51,193 nt of DNA from NCBI GenBank assembly GCA_030685215.1, contig JAUXQB010000192.1, positions 1 to 51,193 of the forward strand, written 5' to 3'. The first letter of the stretch is position 1, and the number at the start of each line of letters is the position of its first letter. Positions 4,277 through 51,193 of the stretch are shown here, in pieces. Below the pieces are notes generated by a model, which was given only the letters and a program-made list of their open reading frames with translations, had not been told where the DNA came from and searched no databases. Both the position numbers and the translations under genes were made by a program. The stretch is from Actinomycetota bacterium (GTDB taxonomy: Bacteria > Actinomycetota > Acidimicrobiia > Acidimicrobiales > Ilumatobacteraceae).

Positions 4277-4287
4277 GCGCTCGCGTG

Positions 4288-4324
4288 TGAGCACTTCCGC
4301 TCGCCTGCCGGGCGAAAGTGCTCA
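4288..4324. repeat. Hairpin repeat element acting as bidirectional terminator between convergent genes
   Basis: TGAGCACTT (4288-4296) pairs perfectly with AAGTGCTCA (4316-4324), and inside it TCGCC (4301-4305) pairs with GGCGA (4311-4315). It lies between the 3' ends of the EamA and MBL genes and overlaps the MBL stop codon. Its sequence (GAGCACTT...CGC...GGGCGA..AAGTGC..CAGACG) is the same family as the repeats at 20363, 21336, 21397 and 21458. Confidence 0.6.
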
Positions 4325-5635
4325 GACGGCGGTGGCGGCGTCGACGACCTGTTGGCTCTCGCGAGCAGCGGCAGCGAAGATGCCCTTGCTCATCAGGCTG
4401 CTCTCCATCTTCCGGCGAGCGAGGTAGATGGCCGCGCGGCCACCGTGGATGGTGGGGTCGTCGGGCGCTGCCCATCCGGCCAGGTCGGCCAAGTGCGACG
4501 CCAGCCGTTCGTCGCCGTCGGCGATGGCCTGCTCGGCCCGCCGCAGCAGCACGTCGGCGCCGCCCGCCAGATCGGCCAACACCGAGGCCAGGTGCGCGTC
4601 GGGCGAGGGCTTCAGCCGCGATGCCGCGCCGTCCCACCAGCCGCCGAACTGGCGCCAGATGCCGCGCACCACGAACTCGGGCTCGTCGTACAGCGGGCGC
4701 AGGTAGGGCTTGGCCAGCGTGTCGGCCGGCACCTTCACGGTGTGGATGATGGTGTCGAGGTTGGCGCCGCTGTTCATCATCGCGACCACGTCGCGCACGA
4801 TGTCCTCCAGCGCGCCGGCCACGTCGCCGAGCACACGAGCGATGCGATCGGCGCCCTCGATGGGAAGGCCGTGCGCGGGCAGCAGGAGTTCCGGGCCCAT
4901 CGCCACCATCCGGCGCAGCGCGGCCGCCCACTCGATGGGGTAGCGCTGCACCTTCTGCGGGTTGCCGGCGTTGGGGAAGTTCCAGATGAGGAAGTCGCCG
5001 GTGACCACTGCCTTCTGCTCGGGCAGCCAGGCCCACAGGTGGTCGTCGGTCTCGCCGCGAGCGTGGTGCATCTCGATGCGGTGCCCGCCGACGGTGACCT
5101 CGTGCGAGTCGCGAAAGGTCTCGTCGGGCCGCATGGTCGCGGCCGGCAGGAAGCGACGCGCCTTCGGGTTCGCCTGCACCTCCAGCCCCGTGCCGGTGTC
5201 GCCGACGCTGAAGTTGAGATCGCCGCTCACGCCACCGAACTGGCGTGCATTGATGATGAGGTTCCACGTGCTCGTGTAGTCGTAGCGGTCCATCCGCACG
5301 GCGACGTTCTCGTGGCCCACCACCACCGGGCGGTCGTCGGCGAAGAACATGCTGCCACCCACGTGGTCGGCGTGGCCGTGGGTGTAGACGAGGTGGCTCA
5401 CCGGGGCGGGGCGCCAGCCGCGCAACGACTCACGCACGGCCTGGCCGGTCATCACCCCGGACGCGTCGAAGCACACCAGGCCGGCGTCGGTGTCGAGGGC
5501 GACGCAGTGGCTGAAGCTCTCCACCATCGCGATGCCGGGGGCGATCTCGCTGAGCTCGTTGGTGACCCGGTTCACCGGTTGATCGGTGTGACCACTGTCG
5601 ATGATGCGGGACGAGAGCGCGAGCAGATCTGCCAT
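4322..5635 (-). CDS. Metallo-beta-lactamase-fold hydrolase, alkyl-sulfatase-like
   Basis: 437 residues. The metal site is clear: THGHADHVGG (HxHxDH, ~110), then GETDDHLWAW (His ~205) and VVTGDFLIWN (bridging Asp ~220). LPAHGLPIEG follows, then FVVRGIWRQFGGWWDG (~325), which matches the dimerisation region of SdsA1/BDS1-type alkyl sulfatases. It is shorter than the ~650-residue sulfatases and ends after the helical dimerisation domain, so the C-terminal SCP2-like domain appears absent. The reaction is probably hydrolysis of a sulfate or related ester; the substrate is unproven. ATG 5635 is preceded by TACCGT with a 7-base gap. Confidence 0.8.
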   Translation of the reverse strand: MADLLALSSRIIDSGHTDQPVNRVTNELSEIAPGIAMVESFSHCVALDTDAGLVCFDASGVMTGQAVRESLRGWRPAPVSHLVYTHGHADHVGGSMFFADDRPVVVGHENVAVRMDRYDYTSTWNLIINARQFGGVSGDLNFSVGDTGTGLEVQANPKARRFLPAATMRPDETFRDSHEVTVGGHRIEMHHARGETDDHLWAWLPEQKAVVTGDFLIWNFPNAGNPQKVQRYPIEWAAALRRMVAMGPELLLPAHGLPIEGADRIARVLGDVAGALEDIVRDVVAMMNSGANLDTIIHTVKVPADTLAKPYLRPLYDEPEFVVRGIWRQFGGWWDGAASRLKPSPDAHLASVLADLAGGADVLLRRAEQAIADGDERLASHLADLAGWAAPDDPTIHGGRAAIYLARRKMESSLMSKGIFAAAARESQQVVDAATAV

Positions 5636-16981: not shown

Positions 16982-17055
16982 TTCTGGACAGGAATCGTCC
17001 CACCGAAGGTTTCTGGACAGGAATCGTGCCGTTCTCCGAGACGATTCCTGCCCAG
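16982..17055. repeat. Short repeat: two direct copies of TTCTGGACAGGAATCGT and one inverted copy
   Basis: Direct copies at 16982-16998 and 17011-17027, 29 bases apart. An inverted copy (ACGATTCCTGCCCAG) lies at 17041-17055. CAGGAATCGT of copy two and ACGATTCCTG of copy three can pair as a perfect 10-base stem with a 13-base loop. It lies just after rel and may also end its transcript. No T-run follows. Confidence 0.6.
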
Positions 17056-17134
17056 TCGCTGCGCCAGCGCCGTTCGGCGCGTCGCGGCGTGACGTTCGTG
17101 CGCACCGCTCCGTGCACCTGGCCCCGTACAGGGG

Positions 17135-17296: not shown

Positions 17297-18571
17297 GTGC
17301 CCGAGTTCCAGACCAGCCCAGGGATGCGCGACATCCTTCCCCCCGAATCGGCCCGTTGGCGCCGGTTCGTGGAGGTGTTCGCCCAGGTCTCGGAAGCAGC
17401 CGGCTACGGGCAGGTCATCTCACCCTTGCTGGAAGATCTCGGCGTGTTCCAACGCATCGGCGACGCCACCGACGTGGTCACCAAGGAGATGTACGACTTC
17501 GTCGACAAGGGCGGCCGTCACATCGCACTGCGCCCCGAGCTCACCGCCTCCGTCTGCCGCGCGTTCGTGCAGCACCGGCCGCTCACGCCGTGGAAGGTGT
17601 GGTACACCGGCTCGCAGTTCCGCTACGAGAAGCCGCAGCGTGGGCGCTACCGCCAGTTCGACCAGGTGGGCATCGAAGTGCTCGGCGCCGACGACCCGTA
17701 CCTCGACGTCGAGATCATGGCGCTCGGCTGGCAGTTCTTCCGCGCCCTCGGGCTCAGCCAGGTCACGCTGCTGCTCAACTCGCTCGGCGAGCCCGCCGAC
17801 CGTGCGCGCTACGTGCACGCGTTGCAGGCCTACTTCGAGGCCAACCTGTCGTCGCTCAGCGAGGCCAGCAAGGTCACGTTGCAGAAGAACCCGTTGCGCG
17901 TGCTCGACTCGAAGCGCCCCGAGGATGCACCCCTCATCGCGGCCGCGCCCCGCATCGCCGAGTTCTACAGCCCGCTCGCGGCGGCACACTTCGAAGCCGT
18001 GCAGGCCGGCCTCACCGCGCTGGGCATCCCGTTCACCATCGACCCCAAGCTGGTGCGCGGGCTCGACTACTACCGCCACACCACGTTCGAGTACACCGGC
18101 GGCACGCTCGAGTCGGCACAGAACGCACTCGGCGGCGGCGGTCGTTACGACGGGCTGGTGGAATCGCTCGGCGGGCCGTCCACACCCGGTGTCGGCTTCG
18201 CGCTCGGTCTCGACCGCACGCTCATCGCCTGCGACGACGAAGGCGTCTTCGCGCCGCCGGTCACCGATGTCGACGTGTTCGTCGTCGACACCACCGGCGG
18301 GCTGCAGGCGCTGCAGATCACCGACCAGCTGCGCGCCGCCGGCATCAGCGCCGATCGCGCCTTCGAGAACCGCAGCATGAAGAGCCAGATGAAGGTGGCC
18401 GACCGCAGCGGTGCTGCGTGGGCCGTCATCGTCGGCAGCAACGAGCTCGAGGCCGGCGAAGTGGTCGTGCGCCCGATGCGCACCGGCGACGCACACGATT
18501 CCACCCAGTCCGGCCAGACCACCATCCTCCGAACCGATCTCCTCGAGTACCTGCAGAAAGCAATGTCATGA
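17297..18571 (+). CDS. hisS: Histidine--tRNA ligase
   Basis: 424 residues. The class II core shows RDILPPESARWRRF (N-terminus), ALRPELTASVCRAF (motif 2 area), RYEKPQRGRYRQFDQVGIE, LVRGLDYYRHTTFEY (the HisRS-specific histidine A region) and GGGGRYDGLVE. The C-terminal anticodon-binding domain (~325-424) follows. It charges tRNA-His. GTG 17297 gives the usual N-terminus (PEFQTSPGMRDILPP) and fits the leaderless promoter. It overlaps aspS by ATGA. Confidence 0.97.
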   Translation: MPEFQTSPGMRDILPPESARWRRFVEVFAQVSEAAGYGQVISPLLEDLGVFQRIGDATDVVTKEMYDFVDKGGRHIALRPELTASVCRAFVQHRPLTPWKVWYTGSQFRYEKPQRGRYRQFDQVGIEVLGADDPYLDVEIMALGWQFFRALGLSQVTLLLNSLGEPADRARYVHALQAYFEANLSSLSEASKVTLQKNPLRVLDSKRPEDAPLIAAAPRIAEFYSPLAAAHFEAVQAGLTALGIPFTIDPKLVRGLDYYRHTTFEYTGGTLESAQNALGGGGRYDGLVESLGGPSTPGVGFALGLDRTLIACDDEGVFAPPVTDVDVFVVDTTGGLQALQITDQLRAAGISADRAFENRSMKSQMKVADRSGAAWAVIVGSNELEAGEVVVRPMRTGDAHDSTQSGQTTILRTDLLEYLQKAMS

Positions 18572-20310
18572 CCTCCACGTCCATGCGTACCCATCAGTGC
18601 GGCGAGTTGCGCCCCGAGCACATCGGGCAGCAGGTCACGCTCACCGGGTGGGTCGCCACCCGCCGCGAGCACGGTGAGAAGCTCGCGTTCATCGACGTGC
18701 GCGACCACACCGGTGTCACGCAGGCCGTCGTCGACAACACCGTCGACGTGCGCTCCGAGTACGTGGTCCGGGTCACCGGCACCGTCGCGGCCCGCCCGAC
18801 GGAGAACCTCAACGAGAAGCTCGCCACCGGCGGCATCGAGCTGCAGGACTGCACCGTCGACATCCTCAACGTCGCCGAGGCACCGCCGTTCCCCGTCAGC
18901 GAGCGCGCCGACCAGGTGGCCGAGAACACCCGCCTGCAGTACCGCTTCATCGACATCCGCCGCGAGCGCATGCAGCGCAACCTGCGCCTGCGTGCCGCCA
19001 TCAACAGCGCCATCCGCACCTCCATGGAGGATCAGGGCTTCGTCGAGGTCGAGACCCCCATGCTCGTGCCCAGCACGCCCGAGGGCGCTCGCGAGTTCAT
19101 CGTGCCCAGCCGCCAGCAGCCGGGCTCCTTCTACGCGCTGCCGCAGAGCCCGCAGCTGTTCAAGCAGCTGCTGATGGTGGCCGGCATCGACCGCTACTAC
19201 CAGATCGCTCGGTGCCTGCGCGACGAAGACCTGCGGGCAGATCGCCAGTACGAGTTCATGCAGCTCGACGCCGAGATGAGCTTCGTCGACCAACTCGACG
19301 TGCACGAGGCCATCGGCGCCTGCGTGGTCGCGGCGGCGAAGGCGGCCGGCCAGGACCCGGGCGAGATCATCAAGATCACGTGGCACGAGGCGATGAACCG
19401 CTTCGGCAGCGACAAGCCCGACCTGCGCTTCGGCATGGAGCTCACCGAGCTCACCGACGTGTTCGCCGCCACCGAGTTCAAGGCGTTCGCCGGCGCCGCC
19501 ACCATCAAGGGCATCAACGCTGCCGGCAAGGCCGACGACTACGGCCGCAACAAGCTCGACGGCATGACCGACAAGGCGAAGAAGATGGGCGCCAAGGGCC
19601 TCGTGTGGCTGAAGGTCGCCGCCGACGGCACGCTCGAGTCGCCCGTCGCGAAGTTCCTCGGCGAGGCCGAGCAGGCTGCGCTGAAGTCCGCCCTCTCGGC
19701 GCAGCCGGGCGACCTGCTGCTCATCGTCGCCGACGAGTGGGCCACCACCTGCGAGGTGCTCGGCACCCTGCGCAACGACATCGGCCGCCCGCCGGTGTAC
19801 GAGGGCCCCTACCGCTACCTGTGGGTGATCGACTTCCCGATGTTCGTGGGTGTCGACGCGGTCAGCGGCCACCCCATCCCGGCGCACCACCCGTTCACCC
19901 GGCCGCACCCCGACGACCTGCACCTGCTCGAGACCGACCCGATGAACGTGCGCAGCCAGGCCTACGACCTGGTGCTCAACGGGTGGGAGCTCGGCTCCGG
20001 GTCCATCCGCATCCACGAACACGAGCTGCAGGCCCGCATCTTCACCATCCTCGGCATCAGCGACGAGGAAGCACAGAAGAAGTTCGGCTTCTTCCTCAAC
20101 CCGTTCCGATACGGTGCCCCGCCGCACGGCGGCTTCGCGTTCGGCATCGACCGGCTGGTGGCCGTGCTCGCCGGCGAGGAGAACATCCGCGAGATCATCG
20201 CCTTCCCCAAGACGCAGAGCGGCATGGACCCGATGACCAACGCGCCCACGCCTGTCGTGCAGAAGCAGCTCGACGAGCTCGGCATCCGCGTCCTGCCCCC
20301 GAAGGCGTAA
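18568..20310 (+). CDS. aspS: Aspartate--tRNA ligase, bacterial type
   Basis: 580 residues. An OB-fold anticodon domain (QVTLTGWVATRREHGEKLAFIDVRD) comes first, then class II motifs with YALPQSPQLFKQLLM, ARCLRDEDLRADRQYEF (motif 2) and GFAFGIDRLVAVLAG (motif 3). The GAD insertion of bacterial AspRS (FAGAATIKGINAAGKA) is present. It charges tRNA-Asp; whether it also charges tRNA-Asn was not determined. ATG 18568 overlaps the hisS stop codon, so the two synthetases are co-translated. Confidence 0.97.
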   Translation: MTSTSMRTHQCGELRPEHIGQQVTLTGWVATRREHGEKLAFIDVRDHTGVTQAVVDNTVDVRSEYVVRVTGTVAARPTENLNEKLATGGIELQDCTVDILNVAEAPPFPVSERADQVAENTRLQYRFIDIRRERMQRNLRLRAAINSAIRTSMEDQGFVEVETPMLVPSTPEGAREFIVPSRQQPGSFYALPQSPQLFKQLLMVAGIDRYYQIARCLRDEDLRADRQYEFMQLDAEMSFVDQLDVHEAIGACVVAAAKAAGQDPGEIIKITWHEAMNRFGSDKPDLRFGMELTELTDVFAATEFKAFAGAATIKGINAAGKADDYGRNKLDGMTDKAKKMGAKGLVWLKVAADGTLESPVAKFLGEAEQAALKSALSAQPGDLLLIVADEWATTCEVLGTLRNDIGRPPVYEGPYRYLWVIDFPMFVGVDAVSGHPIPAHHPFTRPHPDDLHLLETDPMNVRSQAYDLVLNGWELGSGSIRIHEHELQARIFTILGISDEEAQKKFGFFLNPFRYGAPPHGGFAFGIDRLVAVLAGEENIREIIAFPKTQSGMDPMTNAPTPVVQKQLDELGIRVLPPKA

Positions 20311-20338: not shown

Positions 20339-20362
20339 CAGCGCTTCCCCCACCGATCCACC

Positions 20363-20416
20363 GTCTGTGCACTTTCGCTCGCTCCGCGAGCGGAACTGTT
20401 CGGACGCGACGGAAGG
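20363..20416. repeat. Copy of the hairpin repeat, left of the AbiEi/DUF559 gene
   Basis: It reads GTCTGTGCACTTTCGCTCGC, then a CCGCGAGCGGAA inverted arm and GACGCGACGGAAGGGG. Aligned with the copy at 21398 it matches at most positions (GTCTGxGCACTTTCGC, GCGAGCGGAA, GACGCG.GGAAG.GGG). CGCTCGC and GCGAGCG form the hairpin. Confidence 0.65.
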
Positions 20417-20424
20417 GGCGCGAG

Positions 20425-21342
20425 ATGCGGCCAGAACACCACGATGCGCAGCCGACTCCCGAGGAGTGGGCCGAGCGTCACGACGGACTCTTCACTCACG
20501 ACGTCGCTAGGGCCGCCGGTCTCAGCCGACAGCAGATCAGCCGACGGCGAACGAGCGGGCGCGCCCGCGGCATTCGGCGCGGCGTCAGTGCGATCGGCGG
20601 CGCGCCGTCCACTCGCCGCCAGGCGTTGCGCGCGGTGACGCTGACCACGCCCTCCGACGTGGTCCTGTCGCACGAGGCCGCGGCGTGGCTGCTCGGTGCT
20701 CCATGCCCCGCCGACGATCTCATCAACGTGGTCGTTCCGCCGCATCGGGTCGTTCGCGTTCCCGGAGTCCGAGCCCATCGAAGCGCAACGCTCGAGGACG
20801 GCGACGTCACCAGTCGCAGCGGCATCCGCTGCACGTCGCCGTTGCGCACGGTGATCGACCTCAGCGGACGGCTCACCGTTGCAGAGCTCGGCAAGCTCGT
20901 CGACCACTTCCTGCGCCAGAGGCTCCTGCGACTGGAGGACCTGCGCGGTCGTGTGAGCAGGACACGCCCGGCTCCCGGTAGGTCGGTCCGCGCGCTGCAG
21001 CAGGTGCTGCGCGATCGCATCCCCGGCTACGACCCGGGCGAGAGCGAGCTGGAGGGCCGGCTCGCGCGAATCATCGCGCGTGCTGGACTGCCGTCTCCGG
21101 CCCAGCAGCACCGTGTCAGCTACGGCGCCACCCGCTACAGGATCGACTTCGCCTGGCCCGACAGGAAGCTCTACCTCGAGGGCAACGGGTTCGGTTGGCA
21201 CCAACTGTCGTCCGATCTCGACAACGACGCCACCCGTCAGAACGAACTCGTGCTCGACGGGTGGAGGCCCATCGAGCTCACGTGGCGGATGACCGACGAC
21301 TACATCGAGACGACCCTCCGCCGATTCCTCGCACGCGTCTGA
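20425..21342 (+). CDS. AbiEi-like N-terminal domain fused to DUF559/Vsr-like nuclease domain
   Basis: 305 residues. The N-terminus (~15-75) is a winged-helix-like segment (LFTHDVARAAGLSRQQISRR) of the AbiEi type IV antitoxin kind. A middle part with VVLSHEAAAWLLG and SPLRTVIDLSG is usual for this actinobacterial family. The C-terminus (~235-305) reads YRIDFAWPDRKLYLEGNGFG then WH, a DUF559/very-short-patch-repair-like PD-(D/E)xK fold. No toxin partner gene is adjacent, so it is an orphan; its function is unknown (defence or DNA repair are guesses). AAGGGG 8 bases before the ATG may be its SD. Related repeats lie on both sides. Confidence 0.7.
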   Translation: MRPEHHDAQPTPEEWAERHDGLFTHDVARAAGLSRQQISRRRTSGRARGIRRGVSAIGGAPSTRRQALRAVTLTTPSDVVLSHEAAAWLLGAPCPADDLINVVVPPHRVVRVPGVRAHRSATLEDGDVTSRSGIRCTSPLRTVIDLSGRLTVAELGKLVDHFLRQRLLRLEDLRGRVSRTRPAPGRSVRALQQVLRDRIPGYDPGESELEGRLARIIARAGLPSPAQQHRVSYGATRYRIDFAWPDRKLYLEGNGFGWHQLSSDLDNDATRQNELVLDGWRPIELTWRMTDDYIETTLRRFLARV

Positions 21343-21509
21343 GCAGTTTCGCTCGCTGGGCGAGCGGGAGTGCACACACGCGGAAGAGGGGCACGGCGTC
21401 TGAGCACTTTCGCCCGGTGGGCGAGCGGAAGTGCACAGACGCGGAAGAGGGGCACGGCGTCTGAGCAGTTTCGCCCGCTGGGCGAGCGGAAGTGCACACA
21501 CGCGGAAGG
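21336..21509. repeat. 61-bp tandem repeat, three copies, right of the AbiEi/DUF559 gene
   Basis: Copies begin at 21336, 21397 and 21458 (exact period 61; the third ends near 21509). Each starts CGTCTGAGCA(G/C)TTTCGC, contains the hairpin CGC(T/C)CG(C/G)-TGG-GCGAGCG and continues GTGCACA(C/G)ACGCGGAAG. The first copy overlaps the end of the preceding gene. There are no variable spacers, so it is not a CRISPR array. It resembles the single copies at 20363 and 4288. Confidence 0.85.
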
Positions 21510-21536: not shown

Positions 21537-21989
21537 ATGGCGAGTCAGCACTTCCGAGCGGGCGTGGTGATCGTGGTGCGCGACCCCGGCCAGTCGAAGG
21601 TGCTGGCGTTCGAGCGGTCCGACAACCCGGGCAGCTGGCAGCTGCCGCAGGGCGGGCTGAAGGCGGGGGAGAGCCCGATCGAGGGCGCCTGGCGCGAACT
21701 CGAGGAGGAGACCGGACTGCACGCCGAACACGTCGAGGTTCGTGCCGAGTTCCCCGAGTGGCTGGCCTACGAGTGGCCGGCCGACGTGCAACACGAGCAG
21801 GGTGGCACCCACAACCGCATCGGCCAGGTGCAGCGCTGGTTCCTCTTCGACGCTCTCACCGCCGACGTGGAACCCACGCCCGACGGCAGCGAGTTCGTGG
21901 CGTGGCAGTGGGTGGAGCCACGCTGGTTGATCGATCACGTGGCCGAATGGCGCCGGCCGCCGTACGAACGCGTGCTGAGCACGCTCTGA
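21537..21989 (+). CDS. Nudix hydrolase, RppH-like
   Basis: 150 residues. The Nudix box is complete: GGLKAGESPIEGAWRELEEE followed by TGL (GX5EX7REUXEEXGU). The sequence just before it, SWQLPQGG, is the WQxPQGG signature of RppH/Ap4A hydrolases. It therefore probably removes pyrophosphate from 5' ends of RNA or splits dinucleoside polyphosphates; the substrate is not proven. This has possible relevance here because most mRNAs seem to begin directly at the start codon. It has its own leaderless promoter and so does rarA after it. Confidence 0.85.
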   Translation: MASQHFRAGVVIVVRDPGQSKVLAFERSDNPGSWQLPQGGLKAGESPIEGAWRELEEETGLHAEHVEVRAEFPEWLAYEWPADVQHEQGGTHNRIGQVQRWFLFDALTADVEPTPDGSEFVAWQWVEPRWLIDHVAEWRRPPYERVLSTL

Positions 21990-31400: not shown

Positions 31401-31410
31401 TGACGCTGAG

Positions 31411-31451
31411 AGAAGGTGGTGGAGGGCGGCGGAATCCCTTCACCACCTTCT
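31411..31451 (-). terminator. Terminator of the tkt-tal operon
   Basis: AGAAGGTGGTG (31411-31421) pairs perfectly with CACCACCTTCT (31441-31451), an 11-base-pair stem 26 bases beyond the tal stop, with a GC-rich 19-base loop that may pair further (GGG/CCC). Confidence 0.65.
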
Positions 31452-31454
31452 TTC

Positions 31455-31467
31455 GCGTCTGAGCACG
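31455..31467. repeat. Partial copy of the hairpin repeat (CGCGTCTGAGCAC)
   Basis: CGCGTCTGAGCAC matches the start of the 61-bp repeat unit (CGTCTGAGCAC) but lacks the hairpin arm. It may be a remnant or chance. Confidence 0.3.
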
Positions 31468-45627: not shown

Positions 45628-45639
45628 GGCCCAGGTCGG

Positions 45640-45676
45640 GAAGCCTTTCATCACGGCATCCGTGATGAAAAGCTTC
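45640..45676. terminator. Hairpin terminator after trmI
   Basis: TTTCATCACGG (45646-45656) pairs perfectly with CCGTGATGAAA (45660-45670) around a 3-base loop. Outer GAAGC/GCTTC extend it to 45640-45676 with one mismatch. Confidence 0.7.
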
Positions 45677-45707
45677 GCAAGGCTCTGGGCGACCGGACCG
45701 GTGACGC

Positions 45708-47244: not shown

Positions 47245-47280
47245 TTTCCCACAGTCGTTCTCCCGCTAGAGAACCCGCTG

Positions 47281-47315
47281 CGATGCCCGCCGTTGTCCGA
47301 CAACGGCGGGCATCG
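47281..47315. terminator. Terminator after the LPxTG gene
   Basis: CGATGCCCGCCGTTGT (47281-47296) and ACAACGGCGGGCATCG (47300-47315): 16 perfect base pairs with a CCG loop, the longest perfect hairpin in the window. It lies between the LPxTG stop and the arc promoter. Confidence 0.75.
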
Positions 47316-47321
47316 TGGTGT

Positions 47322-51000: not shown

Positions 51001-51193
51001 CCGACGATCATGCCCCGTCGACGGCGTGAAGGTCGTCATCGATGACGCTGCCGCGCCGGTGCTCCAGCCTCTTCCACCCGCGAGTTCCGGTCCTCGTCAT
51101 GGATCGACCGAGGATTCCTCGCTCAGGGCATGACACAGAACGCATTTCGGAGGTGGAGAGCCGACGGGATGCGCCTGTTCTTGTGCGCGCGAG
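51001..51193. other. Window end, no supported gene
   Basis: 193 bases upstream of the SalK-like gene. An open frame starts at ATG 51130 and runs to the edge (21 codons, MTQNAFRRWRADGM), too short to judge. No hairpin or repeat stands out. Confidence 0.4.

Follow-up and report, generated by a model that had tools for sequence, protein, structure and literature searches.

An orphan AbiEi-like nuclease gene bracketed by its own dispersed palindrome: a candidate REP/RAYT-like system in Actinomycetota

The window analysed here, a stretch of 51,193 nt from an Ilumatobacteraceae genome (GCA_030685215.1, contig JAUXQB010000192.1), contains a gene for an AbiEi-like protein with a predicted EDxHD nuclease domain. 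The gene stands as an orphan between aspS and a NUDIX hydrolase gene, and no AbiEii nucleotidyltransferase toxin gene adjoins it here or in those loci of relatives that were read (Table 1). A first-pass annotation had described an orphan AbiEi/DUF559 nuclease-like gene among palindromic repeats, a description which the fold search, the PADLOC models and the neighbouring genes uphold, and which proves to understate the extent of the phenomenon. The repeated unit is a palindrome of 47 nt, comprising a 43-nt core, GTSTGWGCASTTYCGC-YCGCNNNNCGR-GCGRAASTGCWCASAC, and GC on each end. One unit does precede the gene, as had been claimed, but with the boundaries of Table 1 and not those of 20363-20416; start-to-start steps along the four units at the gene are 974, 61 and 61 nt. 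The three copies of 61 bp previously placed at 21336, 21397 and 21458, overlapping the gene end, are indeed three units, although each 61-bp period consists of the 47-nt palindrome and a 14-nt spacer, and the first of them supplies the stop codon of the gene (GTC TGA). A related hairpin annotated at 4288-4324 is a fifth unit of the family. With up to three mismatches allowed, the window has 10 matches to the arm pattern, where 1.8 are expected and 100 shuffles yielded at most 4.

Table 1. Position of the nuclease gene, its neighbours and the palindrome units of its family in the window.
Feature	Position	Strand	Remarks
aspS, upstream neighbour	18568..20310	+	place kept at locus in relatives
Palindrome unit upstream of AbiEi-EDxHD gene	20361..20407	.	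18 nt before ATG
AbiEi-EDxHD gene	20425..21342	+	305 aa; predicted from ORF, Pfam, PADLOC, AF2, fold search, alignment
Palindrome unit 1 downstream	21335..21381	.	overlaps AbiEi-EDxHD gene end
Palindrome unit 2 downstream	21396..21442	.	
Palindrome unit 3 downstream	21457..21503	.	
NUDIX hydrolase gene, downstream neighbour	21537..21989	+	Pfam 1e-21; place kept in relatives
Dispersed unit, same family as 20361..20407	4283..4329	.	between convergent genes

Structure comparison of an AlphaFold2 model of the window protein (pLDDT 85.7) matched residues ~7-200 of 305 to the AbiEi antitoxin-like DNA-binding fold (6y8q, Z 13.1) and residues ~205-305 to the EDxHD/Vsr-like nucleases, among them I-Bth0305I (3r3p, Z 12.1, rmsd 2.3 over 92 residues) and Vsr (1cw0, Z 9.8). 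Pfam matches are weak (AbiEi_4, 7.7e-5; MTES_1575, 0.0013), but the predicted architecture, an AbiEi domain joined to a Vsr-like nuclease, is clear and is accepted here because of the fold search and the PADLOC AbiEi models, which match 9/9 homologues. Residues E210, D241, H259 and D268 are invariant in an alignment of nine homologues and would form the predicted EDxHD active site.

The palindrome of the window is dispersed through the genome of 4.3 Mb. A covariance model (E<1e-5) recovered ~54 units on 30 of 340 contigs, occupying ~30 places, although the contig ends C227 and C313, both of which carry units, may represent one place. The units are arranged as 17 doublets, 12 singlets and 1 triplet, and start-to-start spacing within doublets is 61-63 bp (12/19), 72-73 bp (6/19) or 67 bp (1/19). 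Doublet spacing in this family (for example at 21335-21503 of the window) is bimodal, with classes separated by about one helical turn, a hint that binding takes place along a single face of the DNA. Doublets were also considered as long hairpins of the REPIN kind, a possibility that was rejected, the units being direct repeats. Almost all units (46/49) fall outside predicted genes, in a genome whose DNA is 88% coding, and the dispersed units sit at the 3' ends of genes: divergent gaps are poor in them (2/24 sites against 109/345 gaps, p 0.02), and convergent and same-direction gaps are favoured. The earlier view of a palindromic unit interspersed in the manner of REP elements is thereby borne out.

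Across 48 aligned units there is no consistent GTAG tag; the ends are symmetrical (GCGTSTG / CASACGC), and where a unit contains CGTC, this belongs to the palindrome itself and may stand at one end or the other. Within the genome (48 units, alignment A1), the arms differ at columns 5/43 and 8/40 more than expected by chance, with pairing below that of shuffles. This arm mismatch is peculiar to the window's family in its own genome, the other families and the relatives having near-perfect palindromes. Searching Rfam with the palindrome returned only chance matches to microRNA families, and the exact repeat pattern had no match in named genomes.

Orthologues of the nuclease gene, with 56-67% identity, are found in five genomes from the genus as well as two more named metagenome-assembled genomes, and the aspS-gene-NUDIX order recurs in those loci that were read far enough. 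The first-pass annotation had reasoned that relatives with the gene and without the repeats would speak against a connection; there are none, since palindromes flank the gene in 8/8 orthologue holders, our own genome included. In all eight a palindrome precedes the gene, lying ~18-27 nt ahead of the start codon in most relatives, and one to three more occur at the orthologue's end wherever the downstream side is readable (at L152 the contig stops inside the downstream stretch and the upstream units alone are certain). Length and symmetry of the palindrome are conserved, whereas its sequence varies in step with the gene. The sequence is species-specific (e.g. GTTTGAAGGCG..., GTTTGGACACTTC..., GTTTGAACGCTGC..., GTCTGAGCACTTTC...), and because of this drift model R1 missed the units of relatives, which were found by model R2, built on gene-flanking units. 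The core length is constant at 43 nt in six genus genomes, and among 18 gene-flanking units pairing covaries between species, 83.6% of cells being paired compared to 68.2% after shuffling (0/500), with changes on both sides in 14/21 pairs.

Gene and palindrome also occur together at the level of the genus. Palindromes are present in 9 of 15 genus genomes, including 6/6 with the gene, and the gene is present in 0/6 palindrome-free genomes (Fisher p 0.017, a value that ignores kinship); many of the genomes are fragmented metagenome assemblies that break at repeats. Palindromes without a recovered gene were seen in G001 (three units, with a gene-free aspS-NUDIX junction), G009 (whose contig breaks at this locus) and G011 (an assembly 63% complete). 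Gene-free aspS-NUDIX junctions exist among the relatives, and no uncut target could be defined there. In G004, ~18 units persist in the company of an orthologue (L143:8601-9488) with one in-frame TAG, which reflects either a decaying gene or a sequence error.

Copies of the palindrome are gained and lost, but slowly; any single empty site may reflect either event. The dispersed unit of Table 1 is missing from the orthologous junction of convergent genes in G003 and G014, with a gap of ~52 nt, and alignment of this empty site disclosed no clear target duplication. Two of four checkable G003 sites are absent from G014, while the two common to both, kept at 84% identity, have matching changes on both arms; all checkable G003 sites are shared with G009, which is 95% identical. 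From these comparisons we conclude that movement is slow, sites turning over at roughly 16-22% divergence between relatives and being stable at 5%. At the junction in G014 (L305) that is orthologous to G003 C45:85330, other, different palindromes are found where G003 has a unit.

Matching repeats on both sides of a gene, short dispersed copies and empty sites are also features of an ordinary insertion sequence, of which the palindromes would be the terminal inverted repeats and the dispersed copies the MITEs. This seems distinctly improbable to us. An insertion sequence is recognised by target-site duplication and by several gene positions, whereas the gene here is a single copy, always between aspS and NUDIX in the relatives' loci read, and no target duplication is clear; each flank is a complete palindrome and not one half of an inverted pair; a search for plasmid or phage homologues of the nuclease gene found none; and the nuclease fold is that of no known transposase.

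The association extends to the whole gene family. Nine recognisable members are present in the window's own genome and 8/9 are bracketed, each by its own distinct palindrome. Such flanks occur at 3/595 other genes of this genome, a figure that serves as background only, the simple codon-based gene caller having missed most family genes in the all-gene screen. Where the first-pass annotation looked to a genome-wide count for clustering of the repeat around DUF559 genes, the window's palindrome turns out not to be linked to all of them; because each paralogue has a palindrome of its own, the missing link is no refutation. A given palindrome family flags its cognate gene and no other. Further copies of 7/8 palindrome families were detected in a 0.91 Mb (21%) sample of the genome, reversed-sequence controls giving 0. 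The family of the window (C26) occupied 51 places in this sample, followed by C149 (13), C283 (11), C186 (9), C96 (8), C137/C172 (7) and C76 (4), counts that include flanking copies and that, for C283, derive from contigs partly chosen for that family.

Copies of other families also occur in the window. At 17010-17058 lies one of the CTTCTGGACAGGAATCGTCCCG... family, which brackets a cognate gene split across C137 and C172, and dispersed copies of the palindrome families bracketing the C96 paralogue (AGGAAGCTTTTCATCACGG...) and the C186 paralogue lie at 45638-45678 and 51095-51135 respectively. Two more near-palindromes of 45-49 nt (31407-31455 and 47276-47320) have no copies in the 0.91 Mb sample. 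Elsewhere, matching repeats are present on both sides of a Dps-like gene (L173:3716-4198) and a transporter gene (L207:11382-12605).

Beyond this genome, homologues were found in 43/198 sampled Actinomycetota genomes, with up to 11 in each. Defining as bracketed those loci whose matching flank repeats exceed the 99th percentile of controls, we counted 26/38 among loci mostly of the same order and 15/26 among the others. The complete genome G177 has 6/10 homologues bracketed, three such families having dispersed copies in a 9% sample, and the pooled figure is 47/74, compared to ~1% of control positions; about a third of homologues are without bracketing. Palindromes that bracket family genes measure ~41-57 bp, with a median of 49 beside homologues (n=63), and their similarity tracks that of the proteins (Mantel, 0/2000 permutations), the relationship being lost below ~60% protein identity. 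The repeat is scattered, as the first-pass annotation had allowed, yet it is linked to the gene family both in its own genome and across the phylum, and the association of gene and palindrome is near certain.

These results bear on the view that the palindromes are plain terminators or mRNA-protecting hairpins, alike by chance or through gene conversion and without a tie to any protein. Their placement at gene ends and between convergent genes, and their good folding as RNA hairpins, suit such a function. Each family, however, fits the flanks of one gene, the presence of palindromes follows the gene across the genus, and bracketing is far above the level of control positions. A plain intrinsic terminator was rejected since no T-run follows the units that were read, and we regard this explanation as a whole as highly improbable.

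The dimensions of the palindromes, both unit length and doublet spacing, were measured before comparison with published binding sites. The sites of AbiEi and Rv2827c are tandem inverted repeats that precede the genes for these proteins; AbiEi recognises a pair of 23-bp inverted repeats with 3 bp between them (49 bp in all), and Rv2827c has two site pairs of 23+4+23 with 13 bp between the pairs, making a 63-bp repeat (PMC7319586). Our units of 47-49 bp compare with the 23+3+23 of AbiEi, and our doublets, mostly of 61-63 bp, with the 63 bp of Rv2827c. Direct binding is supported mainly by this agreement, which makes it likely that the palindromes are the binding sites of the cognate protein. In addition, EDxHD enzymes of the I-Bth0305I family form dimers on targets almost 60 bp long (PMC3943268). 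The first-pass annotation had suggested that the protein either copies the repeats or binds them; the geometry supports binding, whereas copying is something we infer, no transposition event having been seen in the relatives compared.

The main rival is a regulator and its regulon without any role in spreading. According to this, an AbiEi-type regulator binds the palindromes, the one upstream serving autoregulation and the dispersed copies being useful to the host in gene control, transcription stop or chromosome packing, and the nuclease domain takes no part in their spread. Such a regulon fits the way in which AbiEi and Rv2827c sites with the same geometry precede the genes for those proteins, the short distance from upstream unit to start codon in most relatives, and the preservation of orthologous sites with changes on both arms. 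It fits poorly with dispersed units that shun divergent gaps, the home of promoters, and sit at 3' ends instead, with units that also lie behind the bracketed genes, with units that come and go between relatives, and with the invariance of the nuclease residues E, D, H and D in nine homologues. We consider it unlikely, though a serious contender.

Our preferred reading, which we hold to be reasonably probable, is that an unrelated nuclease here forms the basis of a REP/RAYT-like system: as a dimer, this protein would bind the palindromes and cause them to spread. Two protein molecules would likely occupy one palindrome through their AbiEi domains, with half-sites of ~22-23 bp around a 3-bp centre. 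The copy upstream would probably repress the AbiEi-EDxHD gene, as in AbiE systems, and each palindrome would likely bring a dimer of predicted nuclease domains to the DNA. Less certainly, the nuclease may nick or cut at or near palindromes, perhaps as single-stranded hairpins, and repair may then insert copies, whether of one unit or of a spaced pair, at fresh sites between genes. The gene itself keeps its place and passes vertically, as RAYT genes do. Cognate pairing, bracketing, dispersal and turnover are all observed; that the nuclease spreads the palindromes is what we infer. A broader proposition, to which we give an even chance, is that the AbiEi-EDxHD nucleases make up a second class of REP-making enzyme, independent of the first, in which a dimer recognises a long palindrome, nicks or cuts, and spreads copies, widespread in Actinomycetota and with up to eight gene-palindrome pairs per cell.

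Among enzymes dedicated to dispersed bacterial palindromes the RAYT (HUH) group is the best known, and certain palindrome families, the CGTC type being one, have no known partner (PMC3733652). A literature search on DUF559, AbiEi or Vsr in connection with palindromes or REPs returned nothing relevant from the library covered, which is no proof of novelty. The present findings give a common, unassigned protein family (AbiEi-like plus DUF559-like) a clear candidate DNA target, and with several cognate pairs of enzyme and palindrome side by side in one genome, specificity can be tested by swapping sites and proteins. They also point to convergent evolution of REP-like systems and offer an actinobacterial handle on the origin and persistence of extragenic palindromes.

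Three known systems invite comparison. With the EDxHD homing endonuclease I-Bth0305I and the nicking enzyme Vsr the window protein has in common the predicted catalytic fold and the conserved E, D, H and D, and EDxHD enzymes dimerise on very long targets; its gene, however, is not within an intron, is flanked by its presumed sites and encodes a different DNA-binding part. With AbiE type IV toxin-antitoxin systems (AbiEi, Rv2827c) it has in common the predicted N-terminal fold and, ahead of the gene, inverted-repeat sites that agree in length and in tandem spacing, but the AbiEii toxin gene is absent, a nuclease domain has been added, and palindromes also follow the gene and are dispersed genome-wide. 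The closest parallel is with REP/RAYT (TnpA_REP) and REPINs (PMC3116915, PMC3733652), where a nuclease-type gene is likewise flanked by a palindrome that is also dispersed in the genome, each repeat family is tied to its own gene with sequence diversity following that gene, copies are intergenic, biased to 3' ends and arranged in spaced doublets, and the gene stays in place while turnover is slow, much as for RAYT genes and REPINs (PMC3116915). The differences are that an AbiEi plus EDxHD nuclease replaces the Y1/HUH transposase, no Y1_Tnp/RAYT transposase being found in our genome or the 15 genomes searched, that the palindromes are 41-57 bp rather than the 20-40 bp of REPs, and that there is no GTAG or CGTC tag, the doublets being direct repeats of the whole palindrome. 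Lacking the Y1 enzyme and the tag, the AbiEi-EDxHD system would work much as REP/RAYT does and yet falls outside that class. Several palindrome families in one genome, each flanking a DNA-binding nuclease gene of its own on both sides, suggest that bacteria have a further, hitherto overlooked kind of repeat-making system next to REP/RAYT.
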